Assembly: GCF_900240275.1 (NCBI RefSeq)
Contig: NZ_LT964761.1
Coordinates: 220,780-267,004 of the forward strand
Direction of reading: 5' to 3'
Length of the DNA: 46,225 bases
Source of the DNA: [Lactobacillus] timonensis
GTDB lineage: Bacteria; Bacillota; Bacilli; Lactobacillales; Lactobacillaceae
Both the position numbers and the translations under genes were made by a program. How positions within the stretch are numbered: position 1 is the first letter of the stretch; every line of letters starts with the position of its first letter. This document shows positions 12,885 through 27,611 of the stretch, in pieces. The notes under the pieces are model-generated. The model was not told the origin of the DNA and ran no database searches. It saw nothing but the letters and a program-made list of their open reading frames with translations.

Positions 12885-13035
12885 GGATCGCATCCATCTA
12901 CATGGGGAATACGTTTTCGTCAACGTACGTCAACAATAGCCGGTAGGATCACCCCCCATCTACATGGGGAATACCCGTAGCAGTTATGTTCTTTGTGGCC
13001 ATAAATAGGATCACCCCCATCTACATGGGGAATAC
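12885..13035 (-). repeat. three leader-distal repeats of an older type
   Basis: These repeats share GTATTC and GGTGATCC ends with the main type but have stem CCCCAT/ATGGGG instead of CTCCAC/GTGGAG (plus-strand reading). Two stem pairs change on both sides, so pairing is kept. The last one (12885-12912) has lost pairing on one arm, as terminal repeats often do. Confidence 0.9.
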
Positions 13036-13099
13036 TCATCAGACTTTTCGTTAGTAACTAATTTGTCATTAGCCTTTTCTTCATCAGACTTTTCATTAG
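13036..13099 (-). other. aberrant 64-nt spacer at the repeat-type switch
   Basis: It is nearly twice the usual 33 nt. It holds a near-exact 19-nt direct repeat (13036-13054 and 13081-13099, one mismatch, TCATCAGACTTTTC[G/A]TTAG). On the minus strand one frame is open throughout and reads a Lys/Glu/Asp-rich segment with NEKSD twice. It looks like a piece of a repetitive coding sequence. Confidence 0.75.
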
Positions 13100-15876
13100 G
13101 GATCACCTCCACACCTGTGGAGAATACTCCCAGCTAGGAGCACCGTGGGCCGTCTTTAAAGGATCACCTCCACACCTGTGGAGAATACGATAATAAATAT
13201 GTTTGCCAACTCGCTTAGTCGGGATCACCTCCACACCTGTGGAGAATACCTCCTCTCACATTGGATACTGCTTGGCATAGGAAGGATCACCTCCACACCT
13301 GTGGAGAATACACCCAGACGTTTCTGATGAAGAGCGTGAAGCCAGGATCACCTCCACACCTGTGGAGAATACTGGTAGACACTGTGCAGAATGTCGGAAC
13401 AACTAGGATCACCTCCACACCTGTGGAGAATACGTACGGACGCCAATATGGTACCGCACCGTCACAGGATCACCTCCACACCTGTGGAGAATACTAACAT
13501 CAGGTTCATCGCTACCTGCGGGCCAGAGGATCACCTCCACACCTGTGGAGAATACTCGTTTTAAACAACGTGTTTGGCGGAAAGCAAGGGATCACCTCCA
13601 CACCTGTGGAGAATACTCACTGGCAGTCCAACTGCAAGGGGTCAAGGCAGGATCACCTCCACACCTGTGGAGAATACCTTAATAATCAAGGATTTGTACA
13701 ACAGGAATAGGGATCACCTCCACACCTGTGGAGAATACTCACGATCAAAGATTTTTTCAGCCAGCGAGTTGGGATCACCTCCACACCTGTGGAGAATACT
13801 GTAGCAACTAAAAGAGTCGGCAAACATATTTAGGATCACCTCCACACCTGTGGAGAATACATCACGAAAGTGTCTGCCGCACTCCTAAAGCCGGGATCAC
13901 CTCCACACCTGTGGAGAATACACAGCAGTTTCAAATGTTGTGCCCTTTGGGACAGGATCACCTCCACACCTGTGGAGAATACTACTGGTAGCCAGTCGCT
14001 GGACAATTGTCTGAAAGGATCACCTCCACACCTGTGGAGAATACCATTGCTGCATCGTGACTATGATCGTGAAAAAGGGATCACCTCCACACCTGTGGAG
14101 AATACTTAGCGACATATTCCCGAGTGGCCACGTCTTGAGGATCACCTCCACACCTGTGGAGAATACGATTACATTAATTCCTACCAGTTTCAATTATCGG
14201 GATCACCTCCACACCTGTGGAGAATACAGGACGGAATCGAAATGAGGACAGATCATAGCAGGATCACCTCCACACCTGTGGAGAATACCCGCTTAGTCAG
14301 TTGACCCATCTTCTGCAGCTGGGATCACCTCCACACCTGTGGAGAATACAGAAGGCAGCCCGGACGATTATCAGGGAGCTGAGGATCACCTCCACACCTG
14401 TGGAGAATACAGCCTGAACCAACCTTTCACGAATACAAACATAGGATCACCTCCACACCTGTGGAGAATACCTGACTATGCTACTAAAGAAGACCTTAAG
14501 GCTAGGATCACCTCCACACCTGTGGAGAATACTCACTCCTTTCTTGATTTTTTATCTATACATAGGGATCACCTCCACACCTGTGGAGAATACACATCTT
14601 TCATACCTATAACGATCCAGCCACCGGGATCACCTCCACACCTGTGGAGAATACTCAGCATAGATAATCCAGGCACCACTAGTCGTAGGATCACCTCCAC
14701 ACCTGTGGAGAATACGCAGGCTATCACCAGGTGTTGTGTCATCAATGGGGATCACCTCCACACCTGTGGAGAATACTTGTCACTAACATATTTCTGATCA
14801 AGTCGACCAGGATCACCTCCACACCTGTGGAGAATACACTTGCGCTGGCGTTTGTCCAGCGTTGACACCAGGATCACCTCCACACCTGTGGAGAATACGG
14901 GGTTTCACCAGCGTTGCCGACACCGAAGCCGGGATCACCTCCACACCTGTGGAGAATACATGTATCGACGCTAGGGATCGATCGTAGTCACAGGATCACC
15001 TCCACACCTGTGGAGAATACGTGTCCGTAATACCTTGATGGGACTATGTGATAGGATCACCTCCACACCTGTGGAGAATACTTCAATTGAACGGCCATCT
15101 GAACGATGTCAACAGGATCACCTCCACACCTGTGGAGAATACAAACGCCGTACTGTTAGTTAGTCGGTAAATCCGGGATCACCTCCACACCTGTGGAGAA
15201 TACCCAATTTATTCATGAGGTCAATGACTTGGTCAAGGATCACCTCCACACCTGTGGAGAATACCGTGTACCAAACGGCTCAGCGTACTATTTAATGGGA
15301 TCACCTCCACACCTGTGGAGAATACATACCTGCCATGATACTGACGTTGTGATCACAAGGATCACCTCCACACCTGTGGAGAATACACTCAAGTAGTATA
15401 CCCGAGCGCCAGTCGTTTAGGATCACCTCCACACCTGTGGAGAATACCCATTGACCACCCGGACAACGAAGTGCACGCAAGGATCACCTCCACACCTGTG
15501 GAGAATACCACCTGAAGCTCGGTGATGACCAGTACCCGCAGGGATCACCTCCACACCTGTGGAGAATACTTGAGCCGGTGGCCAGCCCACAGGACAAGGC
15601 TAGGATCACCTCCACACCTGTGGAGAATACGTATCCTTATCCTTTAAGTAGCCAAATGGAATGGGATCACCTCCACACCTGTGGAGAATACCATCTGCTC
15701 TGGAAAACGATACGTAACTTGGCCAGGATCACCTCCACACCTGTGGAGAATACTGGTCCGGTTCGATGTTGCAACAGGATTTAAGTGGGATCACCTCCAC
15801 ACCTGTGGAGAATACATTCTTGAACGTAAATCAAGGGCCAGACGTTGGGGATCACCTCCACACCTGTGGAGAATAC

Positions 15877-15960
15877 ACTAAAAGATCCCTAAGCTGGCGC
15901 GGTTTTCAAAACGACAGAGCCCCTATTTTAATGAGTTTGATCGCCAACTGATACTCGGCT
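15877..15960 (-). promoter_or_regulatory. array leader, overlapping the 3' end of cas2
   Basis: Only 29 bases separate the cas2 stop (15906-15908) from the first repeat (15876). A type I-E leader of 60 bases or more must therefore include cas2 coding sequence, or be unusually short. I see no clear promoter in the 29 bases. The array may be read through from the cas operon or from a promoter within cas2. Confidence 0.5.
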
Positions 15961-16799
15961 CGAGCGTCCGCCAATGCGTTGTGCGGCCGCTTATTTTCTA
16001 TCTTATATTTTTGTAAAACCGTCGGTAATTGGTAGTTATCCAAAAAGAGGTCATGCTGTTTAACAGCCCTCATCAAGTCGATAAAGTCATTATCCAACCG
16101 CAAACACTCAACCTCATCACAAGCTTGTTGCAAGAAGTGCCGATCAAAGCTGGCATTATAGCTAATCACCGCTAGCGACCCGATAAAGTCCTTTAAAGCC
16201 GCCAAAACACTCTTCAATGATTCACCATGTTCGGCTAATAATTCATTACTAATCCCTGTTAACTGGCTAATCTTATCTGGTATTGACTGCTTAATCCGGA
16301 TTAACCGATAGAATTCCTCCTGGTGACCGCCAACATTTTTCACAGCACAAATTGAAATGATTTCGTCTTTTTCGAAGTCCAACCCTGTGGTTTCAACATC
16401 AACTACCACGAACTCCTTTGTTTGTTGGTAGTTTTTTTGTTGGCGATTCCTTTGGCGTCGGCCATACACTGCCGCCTGGTGCCTCTTATAAGCCTTACTA
16501 AATCCTAGTTTTCGTTTTATTGGTGCTTCCGTCAATGTCATCAACAGCGGAATGCCGTCATAGTCAATAACCTTCTTATCCGACCTGGTGGTCCGAAATT
16601 GATAGCCCAATTCGTTATTGGTGTTATATACCATTGTCGCCTCCCCACGACCAATGTTATCCTTCACCCGCTGCCACAGCGCATCACGAACCTTGGCATT
16701 AACATTTCCAACATAAACACCAGTCTGAAGTTCTTGACACCACTTCGTAAGGTCACCACGTAACGAGCGTGGCACCTTAGTCAACGTGATTACTATCAT
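15906..16799 (-). CDS. cas2: Cas2-DEDDh (DnaQ-like) exonuclease fusion, type I-E adaptation protein
   Basis: 297 aa. Residues 1-95 are a type I-E Cas2 (MIVITLTKVPRSLRGDLTKW at the start). A basic linker (about 100-126, rich in Arg/Lys/Gln) leads to a DEDDh 3'-5' exonuclease at 128-292. Its motifs are D134 and E136 (VVDVETTG), D219 (YNASFDRHF), and H273 and D278 (HNALADA). All catalytic residues are present. Cas2 forms the core of the Cas1-Cas2 spacer integrase. In fused systems the exonuclease domain trims prespacer ends, including the PAM side, before integration. The start lies one base past the cas1 stop. It is the last gene of the operon and ends 29 bases before the array. Confidence 0.97.
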   Translation of the reverse strand: MIVITLTKVPRSLRGDLTKWCQELQTGVYVGNVNAKVRDALWQRVKDNIGRGEATMVYNTNNELGYQFRTTRSDKKVIDYDGIPLLMTLTEAPIKRKLGFSKAYKRHQAAVYGRRQRNRQQKNYQQTKEFVVVDVETTGLDFEKDEIISICAVKNVGGHQEEFYRLIRIKQSIPDKISQLTGISNELLAEHGESLKSVLAALKDFIGSLAVISYNASFDRHFLQQACDEVECLRLDNDFIDLMRAVKQHDLFLDNYQLPTVLQKYKIENKRPHNALADARAEYQLAIKLIKIGALSF

Positions 16800-20806: not shown

Positions 20807-22535
20807 TTGCTACCCCACTCTCGTTCTTCTTTCCTAGCACCGAGGATAACTGAACCGTATAGCGATTATAGTAACTAAAAATTGTTTCTAGCTTATTATC
20901 AAACGCTTTGCCACGAAATTCCTGCGGAGAAGCCTGATCAAGTAATCGTCGGCCGGCCTCATGGGCCAAGCGTCGGAGAGTATTTCGCCACTCATCACAC
21001 TTCTGATCCCGGTCGTCCTGGCTAGTTAAACTTGCTAACCAACGATAAAACGGCTCGTTCAAACTTTCATAGAATTGATCAGCTAACTTCTTAGCATAAT
21101 CATTCGGATTATCTAATCCTCGCAGCTCACCAGCACTTTTAACCAACTGTTGGTAATAATTACCAACCCTGTTCGATTCTTTAATTATCCCCTCAATCCG
21201 CATTGGCCAGAATGACCGAGCTTCCGGATCTTTATCAAAGAGCACATCTACATTTAATTCCATCTGGTCATATACTTCTACTGCAGGCATTTGTGAATTG
21301 GCATTACCATCCTTAATTAGTCCAACAGTTGTCAATCGAATTGGAAAATCGTTAGCAATCAATCCCTGATTTTTCAACAATTGTAACCAGTTCACTATGC
21401 CTGGTTCATGTTCGTCGTCCTTATGTGTTGAAACGTACTCGCCAAAGTTTCGCCACATTGTTCGACTCAGCGAACCAATCCAAAAGGTAGCTGGTTTCCA
21501 TACTTTGTCCTTTTTGTCATATTTCCACGTCGTCATCGGTTCAATAAAAGAACCTTCACTGTCAGCTTTTGGTAATCCTGCCGTGAAAATTGTTGGCTGA
21601 TCACCATCCCATTCAATATGAAGAATTCGAGACCAGAGAGTATATAGCTCAGCTAAATTATCGGGCATGATTCGAGCTGCCCGCTGATCAACGTATTCCT
21701 GCGGGGCCCATTCCCATACTGGTCGTTGGATCAAGCTAAGCGTATTGGATACATTCAGATCTAGGTTAAGCATCAGAGTTTCAAATAGATTTCTTCCTTC
21801 AATGAAAACTGGACGTACACTATAAAGCCATCCCCCAGAAACTGGAAGAGTACTTGCTTTTTTAAGCTTGATTTTATCAGTTACACCTGTAAAATTCTGA
21901 TACATAATTAACCAACGAGTTAGTGATGCCAGATCCAGTTTATTCTTATTGAGCTCTGTCCGTGGCGAAAAAACAAAACGGCTATTATTACTTTCTGAAA
22001 TAGTTCTATTTATTTGTTTAATTGCCAGCTTTCCCTTATCATGACCAACTTTCTTGCCTCTTAGGATTAATTTTAAAGCATCATAATTACCCTTCGAGAA
22101 TTGGTAGAACGGATACCGATCGTCCAGTAAGTCAAAGCGATTACGATAGTGCTTGAGATAGTCCACCACGATCGATGAAAAGTGTCCTTGTTGATAAAGT
22201 GACGACCAGGTGTGCAGCAAAGTAACCTTATTTCGTTTATACATTGAAAGGACTAACTTTTTATTTGGCTTCCCCGCCAGCTGCATCGTTTTTAAATCAA
22301 TTTTAATCCAAGGATAAGATTGACCTTTTGCGTCAAAGCGCGAATAAACTGTTGTTAAAATTGCGATTAAAAAACGAAGAATAGTCAAATCTTGAGAACG
22401 CATATCGCCAGCTAATTGACGATACTCTTGAGCATGTTCAAACAGGTCTTTTAACGACACAGTCTGTTGGTATCCATGTCGATCTATTACCTGGATCCAC
22501 GGTTGAGTAATCAAGTTAAAAGTCTTATTAGTCAT
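20796..22535 (-). CDS. cas8e: Cas8e (Cse1, CasA) Cascade large subunit
   Basis: 579 aa from ATG 22535, preferred over an upstream in-frame start because GAGGAGGAG lies just before it. Cas8e recognises the PAM and recruits Cas3. The N-terminus FNLITQPWIQVIDRHG is typical of Cse1. The middle holds a zinc-free N-terminal lobe, and the C-terminal four-helix bundle spans roughly residues 400-570. The first codons overlap the end of cas3 by eight bases. The length is slightly above the E. coli form (about 500). Confidence 0.94.
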   Translation of the reverse strand: MTNKTFNLITQPWIQVIDRHGYQQTVSLKDLFEHAQEYRQLAGDMRSQDLTILRFLIAILTTVYSRFDAKGQSYPWIKIDLKTMQLAGKPNKKLVLSMYKRNKVTLLHTWSSLYQQGHFSSIVVDYLKHYRNRFDLLDDRYPFYQFSKGNYDALKLILRGKKVGHDKGKLAIKQINRTISESNNSRFVFSPRTELNKNKLDLASLTRWLIMYQNFTGVTDKIKLKKASTLPVSGGWLYSVRPVFIEGRNLFETLMLNLDLNVSNTLSLIQRPVWEWAPQEYVDQRAARIMPDNLAELYTLWSRILHIEWDGDQPTIFTAGLPKADSEGSFIEPMTTWKYDKKDKVWKPATFWIGSLSRTMWRNFGEYVSTHKDDEHEPGIVNWLQLLKNQGLIANDFPIRLTTVGLIKDGNANSQMPAVEVYDQMELNVDVLFDKDPEARSFWPMRIEGIIKESNRVGNYYQQLVKSAGELRGLDNPNDYAKKLADQFYESLNEPFYRWLASLTSQDDRDQKCDEWRNTLRRLAHEAGRRLLDQASPQEFRGKAFDNKLETIFSYYNRYTVQLSSVLGKKNESGVANEQ

Positions 22536-25278
22536 GACACTCCTCCTCTTCATAAGTTAAGCCTAAATCGTGTGAATAATGAATAGTGTAGTTATTAGAT
22601 CCCACTGTCCACCTAGTAGACTTTTGTTCATCCAATGGTAACGCAATTGCATCATGGAGCCACACGCTATCTTGCCAATAAGGAAATTTTTTTGCTGTTC
22701 TTTTCTCTAATTCATCAATAGCTTTAGCAATATTGGGGGTTAACTTGTATGGTAATCGAATAGTTTCTTCGCTTACCTTCTTGGCTACTCTTTCATCTTG
22801 AAGATCATCAATTCTTATTCTCTCGTTCTTGTTTAACATGAAAGCTCCTTCATCAGTTTGCTGAACGAGAATAACTTCTACTGTTTCTTTAATATCTCGA
22901 ACTGACGCCTGAGCTATTGCTTCATTTGTATCAGCTCCATCACGATCATTGTCCAACCACCCATGTAATGAATCGTTAGGCATAGGTTCTTCAATCTGGT
23001 AACGTTGGGCCTTAACTTCCTCTTGTTCCATATGACTCTTCAACAACCGTTTTGCGGCACTCAATCCTTTAACTTCCGCGTCCGTATTCTCGCTATAAAC
23101 TCTTTGGACTAGGGGAGATACATCATCCGGAATTACCAGTTGTTGTCCCAAAAAATAATCAGTCTTCATTAAGTAGTATTTTTCGTAAATAGCTTCATTA
23201 GCTCCACCATAATCAGCAAAATGGGATGCCCCCATAAGATAGACCTGGGGTGCCATTAGATTAGCTGGCCGCGGAATCTTGTGACGATGAAGGCGACCAA
23301 TCCTTTGGATCAATAGATCAACCGGTGCAATATCAGTAAAAAGCACATCAAAATCTATGTCCAACGACTGACTCAACACTTGGGTGCCAACCACAATCAG
23401 TTGTTTAGGGCGTTTGCCGCCTTTACCAATCATCTTGATCAGCTTATCTTCACGCTCTGCCCTATCTGAAGTCAGAAACTCTGAATGAAGCAGTAAAACT
23501 GGTATACCATCAAATTCTTTTGAGATTTGTTGGGCACGGCGAACAGTATTAACAATGATCCCAGCAATTCCTCCACCAGCAATTGTCTTTTTAACTCGAA
23601 CTACTAGCTGGTCATCATCACCAAGTCTAATAACTTGAAACCTTTGTGAACTTTGTTTCGGAAAATCACTTAATCGATGAATTGCTGGTCCATCTGTATA
23701 CGTCATTAATGGATATGCAGCATCAGACTCATCCATCTCTTCTGGATATATTCCGTAACGACCAATTATATAACTACCAAGCAACTCCGCCCGTTTTTCT
23801 GCAGGTAGCGTGGCTGATAGCGCAATTACCGGAACCTTGTATATTCCTAACCATTCCAACGTCCTGCTCAAATATGAAGACATATAAACATCGTAAGAAT
23901 GTACTTCATCAATTACAACTACCTTGCCACTCATTGCCAGGTGACGTAAGAAAAGGTGCTTCTGTTTAAGACTCATCATAAGTAAGTGGTCAATTGTAGC
24001 AACAGTAAACTCTGTTAAAATTGCTTTCTTTCCCGAAAACCAACTGTTCACTACGACCGCACTACGCTCTTCAACATTCTCTGCGCGCGGCATCTTTTGC
24101 TCAGCATTGCTATACATAACGTTAAGCCCTAGTTTAACCTTTTGCTCGTCAGCAATTGAGTTCAACCAATCGGCTACCCGCTTATACATTGCCTTGGTAG
24201 TTGCCTGTGTAGGAAGTCCCATAAAAAAACCATTATGGTCAGTTTTCTCAGCTATTACCTCTGTTGCAGCCAAGGCAATTTCCGTCTTGCCAGTACCACA
24301 ACCACTTTCGATAATAATCATCCCAGGATTATGAATATCATTCATTGCACCTACCATCCGTTTCTGGACAGTATGCGGCAAAAATCTCCAACGTTTTTCA
24401 AAAAGTTTTTTTACATCTGAGACTGGTTGCGGTGTCCACTCATCTTCCTTTAACCAAATTAACAACGCAGAATGAAAACGTCGTTTTTCATCAATATCAG
24501 TGAAGTTGTGCTCAATTGAAATAAGCGGAAAAAGTGGTTGAGTTTCATCATCATTCCAATACTCACTTGAAGCTAGCCAATCAGACATAATCAACAAACC
24601 TTCTAGAATGATAGCCTGTTGTTGATTAATCGATGGAACATCCCTAAGATCGTTCCACTTGGCAGAATCATTATTAATTAAGGAGAATCCCATAGCAATA
24701 AGTTCATTATAAACATCATTCCATTGGTTTATGATTTGTACATCACCATTTTTATCTACTTGATAATAGTTACTGAAGTAACTTGCTTGCTCCTCATATG
24801 AAAACAATTCGTGACACGGTTTACCATGGTGCCCACCAATAATTGCACCGACAGTAGCGCTCAATCCTTGTTGTTCCAGCAAGGCTTCTCCAGCCATTGC
24901 ATGGGGTGATTTATGACGATCCGGAGATGCAACATCAAAGTCTTGCAAGCCGGTAAAACCATCCCTTAGCAAGCGTTCCATGATGTTATTATCCAGGTCA
25001 TCATCATGAAGATACGATTTTTTGGTCTGAAACGCAGGTGTGGCTTTGCCAAAATCGTGAAAAAAGCCGACAAATTTGACTAACCGTTCAACATCATCTT
25101 CCGATAAATCTTGACGAATCAACTGTCGCTGTGCTTTATTAAGCCAATGTTGATACAACCAATTAATCACATTCATCGTATCGGTCAAGTGGGTGACTAA
25201 TGGTAACCATAGTTCCTGACCATCACGAACATCTTTCTTAGCCCACAGGTCTTCTACTTTTCGAGAAAAGATTGTCAC
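22528..25278 (-). CDS. cas3: Cas3 HD nuclease-helicase, type I-E
   Basis: 916 aa from a GTG start with AAGGAG nine bases upstream. Cas3 is recruited to the Cascade R-loop and degrades the displaced strand. The N-terminal HD domain keeps His30, H74-D75 (FFHDFGK) and the HH of GGHHGKP near 150. The superfamily 2 helicase has Walker A GCGTGKT (326-332), DEVH (457-460), SAT (488-490) and a motif VI region QRIGRLHRH. The C-terminal domain is present. All catalytic motifs are intact. It is the first gene of the cas operon, 175 bases downstream of the predicted promoter. Confidence 0.97.
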   Translation of the reverse strand: MTIFSRKVEDLWAKKDVRDGQELWLPLVTHLTDTMNVINWLYQHWLNKAQRQLIRQDLSEDDVERLVKFVGFFHDFGKATPAFQTKKSYLHDDDLDNNIMERLLRDGFTGLQDFDVASPDRHKSPHAMAGEALLEQQGLSATVGAIIGGHHGKPCHELFSYEEQASYFSNYYQVDKNGDVQIINQWNDVYNELIAMGFSLINNDSAKWNDLRDVPSINQQQAIILEGLLIMSDWLASSEYWNDDETQPLFPLISIEHNFTDIDEKRRFHSALLIWLKEDEWTPQPVSDVKKLFEKRWRFLPHTVQKRMVGAMNDIHNPGMIIIESGCGTGKTEIALAATEVIAEKTDHNGFFMGLPTQATTKAMYKRVADWLNSIADEQKVKLGLNVMYSNAEQKMPRAENVEERSAVVVNSWFSGKKAILTEFTVATIDHLLMMSLKQKHLFLRHLAMSGKVVVIDEVHSYDVYMSSYLSRTLEWLGIYKVPVIALSATLPAEKRAELLGSYIIGRYGIYPEEMDESDAAYPLMTYTDGPAIHRLSDFPKQSSQRFQVIRLGDDDQLVVRVKKTIAGGGIAGIIVNTVRRAQQISKEFDGIPVLLLHSEFLTSDRAEREDKLIKMIGKGGKRPKQLIVVGTQVLSQSLDIDFDVLFTDIAPVDLLIQRIGRLHRHKIPRPANLMAPQVYLMGASHFADYGGANEAIYEKYYLMKTDYFLGQQLVIPDDVSPLVQRVYSENTDAEVKGLSAAKRLLKSHMEQEEVKAQRYQIEEPMPNDSLHGWLDNDRDGADTNEAIAQASVRDIKETVEVILVQQTDEGAFMLNKNERIRIDDLQDERVAKKVSEETIRLPYKLTPNIAKAIDELEKRTAKKFPYWQDSVWLHDAIALPLDEQKSTRWTVGSNNYTIHYSHDLGLTYEEEECHD

Positions 25279-25386
25279 TTAACTTAACTCCTTATCATGT
25301 TTCTCTACTAATTACTTTCGTTCATTCTGGATAAAAAACGCTTAGAAGCTAATTGCTGATATTTATTATTGTTATTGTTTATTTTT

Positions 25387-25446
25387 AGTTGAAATATCAA
25401 CTAATTAAAATTATAAGCAGCATTTATCTACAACAAAATTTGTTGT
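25387..25446. promoter_or_regulatory. two inverted repeats in the cas3 leader
   Basis: ACAACAAA-A-TTTGTTGT (25430-25446) lies about 8-24 bases after the predicted start site. TAGTTGA-AATA-TCAACTA (25386-25403) lies further down. Both are perfect and could be repressor operators or RNA hairpins. Confidence 0.5.
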
Positions 25447-25460
25447 CCTTATTAATATAG

Positions 25461-25490
25461 ATTATATTAGACGCTAGTTAATTTTAGCAA
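25461..25490 (-). promoter_or_regulatory. predicted cas operon promoter
   Basis: On the minus strand the -35 TTGCTA (25485-25490) and a perfect -10 TATAAT (25461-25466) are separated by 18 bases. Transcription would start near 25454, giving a leader of about 175 bases before the cas3 GTG. The plus-strand sequence from 25477 to 25490 resembles the putative guide after the orphan repeat. Confidence 0.65.
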
Positions 25491-25519
25491 ACTTAATACA
25501 TTTTAGTGATGGTTATCGA

Positions 25520-25546
25520 ATTAGCTAGTCGCAAAAAAGCTAATAT
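25520..25546 (+). promoter_or_regulatory. possible promoter/operator of the orphan repeat RNA
   Basis: ATTAGCT (25520-25526) and AGCTAAT (25538-25544) form a perfect 7-bp inverted repeat that overlaps a -10-like TAATAT (25541-25546). A start seven bases downstream would fall at the orphan repeat. No good -35 is seen. Confidence 0.35.
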
Positions 25547-25553
25547 CTAAACA

Positions 25554-25614
25554 GTATTCCTCATAATAATGAGGGTGACAGCGTTAATTTTGCAAGCAGC
25601 CATTTGTTAGCGCT
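25554..25614 (+). ncRNA. orphan degenerate CRISPR repeat with putative guide (crRNA-like RNA)
   Basis: 25554-25580 reads GTATTC, stem CTCAT, loop AATA, stem ATGAG, then GGTGACA. GTATTC and GGTGA are identical to the array repeats and have the same 14-base spacing. The six-pair hairpin, including the outer C-G, is fully kept. Against the older repeat type one inner pair changed from C-G to T-A on both sides, so pairing was preserved. It is oriented opposite to the array and to cas3. The following bases (from about 25581) would be the guide. They include GTTAATTTT (25583-25591), also found at 25477-25485 in the cas promoter. The guide part can fold on itself (AGCGTTAA 25580-25587 with TTAGCGCT 25607-25614). 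No second repeat follows at spacer distance. Transcription is not shown. Confidence 0.6.
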
Positions 25615-25751
25615 TACATAAAAGTATACAAACAATGTTCTCACTGCGCAACTGCATAAGTTTTCAGCTCATTACATTCACACTATTCGATTACGCAGAT
25701 TAATCAAGTAGGTAACATTACAGCTAACAATAGTAAAATGAAGACATTGAA

Positions 25752-25774
25752 GAGCGATAGATGCCTATTACGAG
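25752..25774 (+). repeat. hairpin element, copy 1
   Basis: GAGCGATAGATGCC followed by TATTACGAG. A short hairpin ATAG/CTAT is possible. A longer version lies at 26201-26234. The two copies are 198 and 197 bases after the two repeat-like sites. Confidence 0.5.
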
Positions 25775-25839
25775 AAAAAAGTATTTAATCCATTGAACAG
25801 CAATTAGCATTTTTACAAATGATTAAGGAGCTGTACATT

Positions 25840-25929
25840 ATGGATTTATACGAATTTCCAATGTTTAACGAGTTTCCGGCACAGAATTACTACTATACCT
25901 TGTGTAACACAGCTGGTACGATGCTTTAG
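25840..25929 (+). CDS. 29-aa small ORF with a good ribosome binding site
   Basis: AAGGAG (25825-25830) lies nine bases before the ATG. The peptide begins MDLYEFPMFNEFPAQNYYYT and ends CNTAGTML. It is rich in aromatic residues, with one cysteine and no membrane helix. I do not recognise it. It could be a genuine micropeptide, a regulatory uORF, or the 5' stump of a lost gene. It lies within the crRNA-like region, downstream of the orphan repeat on the same strand. Confidence 0.4.
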   Translation: MDLYEFPMFNEFPAQNYYYTLCNTAGTML

Positions 25930-26003
25930 ATTAAAACAATTAATGTCTATAGGACCATCTATTATGGCAAACGAACCAGAGTTCAAAAGAGTAGATATAA
26001 TTT

Positions 26004-26031
26004 GTATTCTCGAATATACAGTTGGTGCTAA
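26004..26031 (+). repeat. second, more decayed CRISPR-repeat-like site
   Basis: GTATTCTC (identical to the first eight bases of the main array repeat) and GGTG are again separated so that GTATTC-N14-GGTG holds exactly. The inner 14 bases no longer form a stem. It lies 450 bases after the first orphan repeat, in the same orientation. Confidence 0.35.
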
Positions 26032-26056
26032 TAGATTCTAAATCGCAAGATCTTTT

Positions 26057-26090
26057 CTATTTGCAAAAAATCGCTGTTTTTTGCAAATAG
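26057..26090. promoter_or_regulatory. perfect 14-bp inverted repeat
   Basis: CTATTTGCAAAAAA and TTTTTTGCAAATAG flank TCGCTG. It may be an operator or an RNA hairpin. A six-codon ORF with AAGGTG upstream (ATG 26107, MTNIKP) follows at once but is too short to call. Confidence 0.55.
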
Positions 26091-26200
26091 CAACAAGGTG
26101 TATAGTATGACAAACATAAAACCCTAAAAGTAATTTATTCTTTTGCACCCCTCAGACGTTAGCATTAAATCCAAAACAGTAGTAGAATTTGATTATACGA

Positions 26201-26234
26201 GAGCAATAGATGCCCTACGGGACCTATTACGGGG
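26201..26234 (+). repeat. hairpin element, copy 2
   Basis: Same GAGC-ATAGATGCC core as copy 1 but with an extra CCCTACGGGAC. It forms AATAG/CTATT (26205-26209, 26224-26228) with an inner CCC/GGG stem. The flanks upstream (AGTAGAAT versus AGTAAAAT) also agree. Confidence 0.5.
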
Positions 26235-26272
26235 AATAACCTTCATTCTGTGTTTGCGGAATGGAGGTTATT
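26235..26272 (+). terminator. long hairpin, possible terminator
   Basis: AATAACCTTCATTC (26235-26248) pairs over 14 positions with GAATGGAGGTTATT (26259-26272), with one wobble. Only a weak T-stretch (ACTTT) follows. Confidence 0.45.
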
Positions 26273-26364
26273 ACTTTAAAACGTAAATTTTTCCCAATCA
26301 AAGACACGCTTTGAACTATATAGCATCTTGACACTTCCATTAAATACATAAGTTATGTAGTTTG

Positions 26365-26463
26365 TTGACATCCCCACCATTACCTGTAACAATAAAAACA
26401 ATCAAGTGAAATGGTCAGCTGAAGACCGACTAGGCAGGCGCGAAAACGCCTGCCTTTTGTGTT
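26365..26463 (+). ncRNA. candidate small RNA with promoter and terminator
   Basis: TTGACA (26365-26370) and AACAAT (26388-26393) at 17-base spacing predict a start near 26400. A short GGTC/GACC hairpin follows. A strong terminator AGGCAGGCG/CGCCTGCCT (26432-26440, 26447-26455) with TTTGTGTTT ends a transcript of about 60 nt. There is no ORF inside. The function is unknown. Confidence 0.45.
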
Positions 26464-26592
26464 TATGAAGACCCATTTAATAATTTGCGTGCTTGGATAA
26501 GTGTGAGGATAGATGAACACTTAAAAAACTATCCTGAAGATGAAAGCTACTTATTCAAAACAATGGAACTCAATCACAAGATTATTAGCTAA
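26459..26592 (+). pseudogene. 3' remnant of an unidentified gene
   Basis: One frame reads YEDPFNNLRAWISVRIDEHL and on through KNYPEDESYLF to a TAA at 26590-26592. The composition is protein-like and charged. There is no start codon with a ribosome binding site, and the frame enters from the terminator hairpin, so this looks like the tail of a deleted gene. The family is not recognised. Confidence 0.3.
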
Positions 26593-26681
26593 ACAAAAAT
26601 TATACTAGCTTAAATTCATTTAATAGCTCACTGCCGATTGATACTAGCCAACTAACACTAACATATAATTCAACACAATTA

Positions 26682-26722
26682 AGACCGCCAACGTTCTGAA
26701 AGAAAACGCTGACGGCCTTATT
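26682..26722. terminator. hairpin downstream of the RpiR regulator gene
   Basis: AAGACCGCCAACGTT pairs imperfectly with AACGCTGACGGCCTT around CTGAAAGAA. T-rich sequence lies on both sides, so it could end the leftward rpiR transcript. Confidence 0.55.
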
Positions 26723-26759
26723 GTTTTATGACAAAGCCCAATAATAACTATCTATTCAG

Positions 26760-27611
26760 CTATTGTCCCTGGTGTTTTGCCAATAAGTTGTTGTCCATCC
26801 TTTGACTAATCTCATTTATCTCGTCTTCAAAACTTTGCGTTGTCATCATATATAGTGTATCGGCAATCGCAATTTGTGACGTAACCGATAGCAATGCTTC
26901 AGTTCGGTAACGCTTATCCGCTGAAATCGAATAAAAGCCCACAGTCCCGAAAGCATCAAGGGGCGAGTTAGCAAAGCTGGTAATGGTGATCATCGGAACA
27001 TGATTCTGCTGGAGAATCTTTGCAATATACAAAATGTCATTATCATTACCCGTGTGTGAAATTAAAATAGCCAAGTCGTCTTTAGTCATCCGAGAAGCCT
27101 TCATGATGTTGATGTGATAATCACTGGCATATGTGACTTCTTTTGGTGTCCGCAAAAACATGTGATAACACTCTTGCGCAACAATATTGGAACTCCCTAA
27201 ACCAAAAAAGCTCAGACGTCGACAATTCTTTAACAATTTCTTGGCTTCATTGAGTTGCTCATTAGTCATTAAAGCAAAGGTTTCATTAAGAGTTTCCAAG
27301 TTAGAGCTCAGTAGTTTCTGGGCAATCATTTTGGGACTATCATCTTTACTGATCTGCCGCTCTTTTTGCAAGGGAGTCCGGCCTGAATTATTAGCCAGAT
27401 CCCATCGGAATTGGGAAAAATTTTGATAACCTAGCTGACTAGCAAAGCGTGATAATGTCGCAGTAGACACTCCTGCAGCCTTTGAAAACTCTTGAATTGT
27501 CATTGCAGAACAGTTTACACCATTTTGTAAGATAAAATCAGCCAGTTTTTTCGAACTAGATCCGAAATTTTCATACATTGTTTTAATTCTGGCGATCACG
27601 GACGCGTACAT
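26760..27611 (-). CDS. RpiR/MurR-family transcriptional regulator
   Basis: 283 aa with AAGGAG before the ATG. Residues 1-77 form the RpiR helix-turn-helix domain (SKAAGVSTATLSRFASQLGY). Residues 105-245 form a SIS sugar-phosphate-binding domain (FFGLGSSNIVAQ..., ILISHTGNDND). Such regulators sense a phosphosugar. It is divergent from ulaC-A-B-G, so control of the ascorbate PTS operon by a phosphorylated pathway intermediate is the natural inference. The intergenic region holds inverted ATGTAAATCATTT boxes. Confidence 0.88.
   Translation of the reverse strand: MYASVIARIKTMYENFGSSSKKLADFILQNGVNCSAMTIQEFSKAAGVSTATLSRFASQLGYQNFSQFRWDLANNSGRTPLQKERQISKDDSPKMIAQKLLSSNLETLNETFALMTNEQLNEAKKLLKNCRRLSFFGLGSSNIVAQECYHMFLRTPKEVTYASDYHINIMKASRMTKDDLAILISHTGNDNDILYIAKILQQNHVPMITITSFANSPLDAFGTVGFYSISADKRYRTEALLSVTSQIAIADTLYMMTTQSFEDEINEISQRMDNNLLAKHQGQ

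Follow-up and report, generated by a model that had tools for sequence, protein, structure and literature searches.

CreR and CreTA, the described systems closest to the element considered here, are already published. The CreR work of Liu et al., which appeared in Cell Host Microbe in 2023, is said to cover types I-B, I-E, and V-A. In the summary given in PMC12737573, CreR are Cas-regulating RNAs that come from mini-CRISPRs, and the toxin of the published CrePA is of KilA-N type. For haloarchaeal CreTA, PMC9458426 describes a first repeat that keeps eight Cas5-binding bases and a second repeat that largely loses them, and gives creA "one or two" repeats.

Here, a single degenerate CRISPR repeat upstream of the type I-E cas genes of [Lactobacillus] timonensis is compared with these systems and with a benchmark of cas3 upstream regions from other Lactobacillaceae. 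The repeat lies in a stretch of 46,225 nucleotides, the whole of the DNA that was analysed and referred to below as the window. The benchmark matters more than the window element, which is itself probably a remnant. A rule that can be checked, namely a GTGATCC handle, an AAY flank, a seed match at bases 1-5 and from base 7 onward, and a second repeat whose handle has decayed, singles out likely CreR autorepressors at 19 of 73 Lactobacillaceae type I-E loci. The benchmark also yields a co-change at three positions between two loci (L044 and L047) and one locus where a mini-CRISPR and cas3 are separated by a PemK/MazF-like gene. For editing with the type I-E systems native to lactobacilli, it would help to know in which strains such a brake is present.

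The type I-E locus and its PAM

The cas genes of the window run in the order cas3, cse1, cse2, cas7, cas5, cas6e, cas1, and cas2 (Table 1). Cas2 is fused to a DEDDh/RNase T exonuclease domain (15906-16799, minus strand). The trailer end of the array (12885-13035, minus strand) holds three variant repeats with a different stem, CCCCAT/ATGGGG in two of them and with a changed right arm in the third, and these variants are closer to the orphan repeat than the main repeat is. The T or C found at base 29 throughout the window array implies a PAM that ends in Y, and in relatives 1619 of 1658 repeat copies likewise carry T or C there (63 of the 73 loci had a recognised array). The PAM was inferred from this base together with the targets of relatives because protospacer searches gave none: the window array had no match among phages, 22-base pieces of three array spacers had none among viral contigs, and 10 plasmid records matched the array at 68.6-89.5% identity.

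Table 1. Principal features of the window; positions are counted from its first nucleotide.
Feature	Position	Strand	Details
CRISPR array	13100..15876	-	46 exact repeats GTATTCTCCACAGGTGTGGAGGTGATCC; all 46 have T or C at base 29
Variant trailer repeat GTATTCCCCATGTAGATGGGGGTGATCC	13035	-	trailer end of the array
cas3 (type I-E)	22528..25278	-	first of eight cas genes, all open frames
Predicted sigma-70-type cas3 promoter	25461..25490	-	TTGCTA-18-TATAAT; region has 8 promoter-like sites, against a chance expectation of 7.6
Supposed target GTTAATTTT-A-GCAA	25477..25490	+	CTA directly before it (25474..25476)
Orphan degenerate CRISPR repeat, psiR2-like	25554..25581	+	GTATT, stem CCTCAT-ATGAGG, loop AATA, GTGACAG
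Would-be 5' handle GTGACAGC	25575..25582	+	GTGA kept, TCC gone
Supposed guide GTTAATTTTGCAAGC...	25583..25614	+	directly 3' of the repeat

An orphan repeat upstream of cas3

The orphan repeat, GTATTCCTCATAATAATGAGGGTGACAG, keeps GTATTC, a complete stem of six pairs, and GTGA. On a score made by hand from the 5' flank, the stem, and GTGATCC, and built after this repeat was known, it reaches 23.7, a value that no shuffle attained when the 1000-bp upstream region was Markov-shuffled 3000 times (best shuffle 21.4). It should be noted that all shuffle nulls used for the repeat score, the seed and gapped matches, and the second-repeat search are first-order Markov samples. The orphan repeat is the top-scoring match in the window outside 13000-15900, and the next one (20.5) lies inside cas3. 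When 30 of the distinct array repeats are used to build a covariance model, the orphan repeat again ranks first, but a runner-up at 13.1 bits comes close to its 13.4 bits (E = 0.23 over 30 kb); E is 0.011 when the scope is the 1.48-kb intergenic region. The same model gives only 10 bits to its one reported match in the L008 mini-CRISPR, which lies in the genome of locus L037, and is thus a harsh judge of diverged repeats. A search of Rfam matched no family.

The original prediction of a degenerate repeat upstream of cas3, in the orientation opposite to that of the array and with GTATTC and GGTGA at array spacing, is therefore borne out by its rank outside the array and by the shuffles: the repeat is genuine, ectopic, and far from chance. 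The prediction had further described a stem of six intact pairs with one pair changed on both sides. The six pairs stand, and by eye the single change (C-G to T-A) holds when the comparison is with the variant trailer repeat; the main array repeat shares 16 of its 28 bases with the element and differs in three pairs on both sides, likewise by eye. The CCTCAT/ATGAGG stem recurs identically in the first repeat of L095 and in the second repeat of L037, a locus whose genome encodes the best-scoring Cas3 (53% identity).

A chance likeness to a repeat, in what is really an ordinary regulatory or terminator-like stem, would agree with a palindrome that scored terminator-like on the minus strand, with a following hairpin arm that overlaps a perfect CcpA cre match, and with the E of only 0.23 over 30 kb. 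This reading is very improbable, however, given that GTATTC and GGTGA flank the six-pair stem at exact repeat spacing, that no shuffle equalled the score, and that relatives carry ectopic repeats at this same position upstream of cas3.

Guide-target pairs upstream of cas3 in Lactobacillaceae

Cas3 is present in 73 of 396 genomes of the family, the window's own counted, and the benchmark comprises 73 cas3 loci from the 72 others, with upstream spans of up to 1000 bp that are shorter at contig ends (133 bp in L050). A scan of genome contigs for Cas3 gave only two loci. The guide was defined as the sequence after a GTGATCC-like handle with at most one mismatch, and the seed (k) was counted with position 6 ignored. 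An AAY-flanked guide-target pair lies upstream of cas3 at 19 of the 73 loci at k ≥ 9 and at 22 at k ≥ 8, the latter including the similar pairs L044/L047 and L054/L057, versus none and one, respectively, for control guides shifted by 20 nt. Flanks other than AAY gave 0 to 4 loci at k ≥ 9 and 0 to 6 at k ≥ 8. With up to two handle mismatches the AAY contrast is weaker, at 28 versus 12 (k ≥ 8) and 21 versus 9 (k ≥ 9). This systematic count supersedes a hand-picked list of 19 relatives, 15 of which had an AAY-flanked pair at k ≥ 8.

The 22 guides are all on the strand of cas3, and a second repeat follows 18-33 nt after the guide start in every case (stem score 10 to 15.5; scripted count). GTGATCC is present in the first repeat at 19 of these loci and has one change at the other three, in a set selected on that handle with at most one mismatch; none of the second repeats keeps it, and eight of them have GTGA with other letters after it, the same kind of asymmetry as PMC9458426 describes for haloarchaeal CreTA. 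Besides L037, L044, and L047, the pairs at k ≥ 9, each with its second repeat, are those of L063, L072, L104, L085, L087, L092, L056, L061, L081, L043, L054, L057, L090, L095, L101, and L108. Fourteen of the 19 pairs have a mismatch at position 6. Type I-E Cascade leaves the sixth seed base unread, and such mismatches are as expected if that base goes unread. The pairs of L044 and L047, which come from related species within the window's genus, lie 200-290 bp from cas3 on its upstream side. Between these two loci guide positions 1, 7, and 10 vary, and the targets vary in the same way at those three positions, a co-change that is good evidence for guide-target pairing. By eye, a -10-like box precedes the mini-array of L044, L047, and L037, with the target just past it in each case. 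The first repeats of these three loci are strongly diverged in their 5' half.

Taken as they read, the AAY-flanked pairs upstream of cas3 at Lactobacillaceae type I-E loci are likely CreR autorepressors. The general idea of the original prediction, that degenerate repeats near cas genes can be crRNA-like autoregulators, thus fits the family because of the 19 pairs and the L044/L047 co-change, in line with what PMC12737573 summarises.

At L037 (positions 1657-2452; genome G012, of the window's genus), a mini-CRISPR is followed by a 219-codon PemK/MazF-like gene (PF02452, E = 4e-9) and then by cas3. The repeats of this mini-CRISPR lie at -931 and -882 from cas3, and its guide matches GTACT-A-TAAGAA, preceded by AAT, just ahead of the mini-CRISPR. 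Relatives of the PemK/MazF-like protein occur in 17 other genomes of the 396; among the cas3 loci fetched, L037 alone has one. The pair is possibly CrePA-like with a toxin other than the published KilA-N type, or merely a shared autoregulated transcript. A decayed PemK in the window was also considered and rejected, with no match to the L037 protein at E ≤ 1.

Comparison of the window element with relatives and with described systems

Relative to cas3, the orphan repeat is oriented opposite to every one of the 22 guides paired at k ≥ 8 in relatives, and its handle, GTGACAG, differs from GTGATCC at 3 of 7 positions. No second repeat was found 10-45 nt after the supposed guide start, where the best stem score is 5.0 (null median 6.0). 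The mini-CRISPRs of relatives (for example L063, L090, L104, L044/L047, and L037) occupy the same place as the orphan element and share its stem in the L037 second repeat and the L095 first repeat, but in them a first repeat with GTGATCC or a close variant is joined by a second repeat and by a seed target flanked by AAY; the window lacks all three.

Like CreR, the element is a degenerate, CRISPR-like repeat outside the array, near the cas genes and upstream of a type I cas operon, with no toxin gene seen beside it. It differs from CreR in having one repeat instead of a two-repeat mini-array, no PAM-flanked match to the cas promoter, the opposite strand, and no handle of the GTGATCC type carried by first repeats. 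The likeness to CreA of CreTA resides in the degenerate repeats, the hairpins of which are kept in Acinetobacter in the account that PMC10097628 gives of them, and of which haloarchaeal psiR2 largely loses the handle, as PMC9458426 describes; the orphan repeat similarly keeps its stem and 5' flank and has a degenerate handle. Unlike CreTA, it has no second repeat, PAM-flanked target, or identified toxin gene. Over the 1500 bp upstream of cas3, the strand of cas3 has no open frame of at least 50 codons, nor does either strand of 25279-26759 have one of at least 80. When the upstream region was compared with the other 49 genomes of the genus, among which there is no close strain, the only match was a 28-base stretch in one genome (G030).

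The supposed guide and the cas3 promoter

After the orphan repeat comes one C and then GTTAATTTTGCAAGC; the supposed guide would start at G25583 because base 29 after the array repeats is T or C. Its match to the cas3 promoter is exact over nine contiguous bases (GTTAATTTT, 25477-25485), continues with GCAA after one extra A, and runs across the predicted -35. The resemblance that had been predicted is hence present but marginal, with p = 0.045 for the contiguous seed (600 bp, 200 shuffles) and p = 0.0365 for the gapped match (275 bp, 2000 shuffles), and 11 of 225 neighbouring intergenic 20-mers align as well to the cas3 promoter region. It is most likely an AT-rich coincidence. AAY-flanked matches of the supposed guide reach k = 4 at best in the 600 bp upstream of cas3, and no AAY target at k ≥ 8 exists for the guide at 25583 within 25100-26760. 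Two weak points that the original prediction had itself named were confirmed: no AA-type PAM adjoins the match, and the guide folds on itself, with 25580-25588 paired to 25606-25614 over nine pairs (z = -3.24). The fold of the orphan repeat with the bases that follow was equalled by only 1 of 200 shuffles.

The proposal that Cascade, loaded with RNA from the orphan repeat, represses the cas operon would require an RNA that starts with GUGACAGC-GUUAAUUUU to guide Cascade to 25477 and block the cas3 -35, perhaps together with the RNA's own plus-strand promoter. In its favour are nine contiguous seed bases at the right place, the occurrence of such autoregulators in relatives, and, by eye, the similar position of the L044, L047, and L037 targets just past a -10-like box. 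Nevertheless, an active single-repeat CreR is quite improbable, since the flank is CTA whereas relatives use AAY (19 versus 0 controls at k ≥ 9), the handle has three mismatches to GTGATCC, the strand is opposite to the guides and the second repeat missing relative to 22 of 22 relatives, the guide seed is paired in its own hairpin, and the match has p of about 0.04. CTA and NTA are hardly enriched in the benchmark: with at most one handle mismatch, guides versus controls gave 0 versus 0 (k ≥ 9) and 1 versus 0 (k ≥ 8) for CTA, and 2 versus 2 (k ≥ 9) and 4 versus 2 (k ≥ 8) for NTA. Repression of the cas operon by this RNA is thus unsupported, and targeting of the cas3 promoter by the element was rejected on the PAM, the strand, the handle, and the absent second repeat. 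In a more elaborate and very improbable form, a single-repeat CreR divergent from cas3 would have a guide that binds between two overlapping divergent promoters, no AA-type PAM, and a looser target recognition than in relatives, with a guide hairpin that overlaps the CcpA site so that sugar status could act on it.

An active crRNA-like RNA with another genomic target, or a decoy for Cas6e or Cascade that consists of the repeat alone, would be in keeping with the intact stem. For such an RNA, candidate targets are AAT followed by 10 guide bases at L148:1501-1530 (G000:C1:1556639), near a possible -10 and ahead of a ppaC-like gene (named by eye), and AAC followed by GTTAA-A-TTTGCA inside a coding frame (L134). 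Sites within one mismatch in the window's own genome number 15, one of which is the element itself, versus 8 for a reversed control pattern; the matches, the L148 site included, are therefore not clearly above chance, and a trans target in this genome was rejected on that comparison. The degenerate handle also speaks against either version, and the reading as a whole is unlikely.

A proposed remnant of a mini-CRISPR

Since the other pieces of a switch were not found, the orphan element is probably a remnant, and we give about even chances to its being the leftover repeat of a former mini-CRISPR and not a working switch. A mini-CRISPR of the CreR or CreA kind would once have lain upstream of cas3, with the orphan repeat as its psiR2-like second repeat. 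Judged from the repeats themselves, the stem is shown to have been kept through two-sided changes and the handle to have decayed as in the second repeats of relatives. Because GTGA-CAG resembles the handles of those second repeats, the guide is to be expected on the 5' side of the orphan repeat. The partner repeat and guide would have been lost or have decayed there, so that the orphan repeat would now guide nothing, although its transcript, if one is made, might still be bound or cleaved by Cas6e.

On that 5' side there is no clear first repeat, and the best candidates score low. A two-mismatch handle, GTGATGGT, lies at 25506-25513. This handle, and the strong divergence in the 5' half of the first repeats of L044, L047, and L037, leave some room for a mini-CRISPR that is still active, with a first repeat too diverged to see and a guide in the 20-40 nt before 25554. 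Guide starts at 25514-25541 give at most k = 6 with AAY, however, and if GTGATGG is read as the handle, the spacer is 40 nt long and k is 4, which together with the low-scoring first-repeat candidates makes a hidden active unit decidedly unlikely.

A former mini-CRISPR is not the only possible source of a relic. The repeat may, less likely, derive from a small array written away from cas3, which by strand is equally possible because repeats of that orientation occur upstream of cas3 in L045, L049, L052, and L107, the last three of which look like ordinary arrays. Against a remnant of any origin, it can be argued that the stem, GTATTC, and GTGA, all intact here, would have been lost in a relic of long standing, that a fold matched by only 1 of 200 shuffles could mean a kept structure, and that a single-repeat creA can exist, given the "one or two" repeats in the abstract of PMC9458426.

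Other features of the intergenic region

A predicted CcpA cre site, TGTAAGCGCTAACA (25605-25618, minus strand), is a perfect match to the consensus and one of two in the window. One arm of the supposed-guide hairpin overlaps it, and it lies directly downstream of a possible minus-strand promoter found by eye, TTGCGC-17-TATACT (25651-25623). A perfect cre match is present in only one other (L072) of 74 upstream regions of up to 700 bp. Additionally, a 29-codon frame preceded by AAGGAG lies at 25840-25929 on the plus strand in an otherwise empty intergenic region. Between cas3 and an rpiR-like gene, diverged repeated pieces occur at 25716-25780 and 26200-26394 (AGAGC-ATAGATGCC, CCTATTACG..., and CATTAC...AACAATA), which are perhaps the remains of a duplicated small gene.
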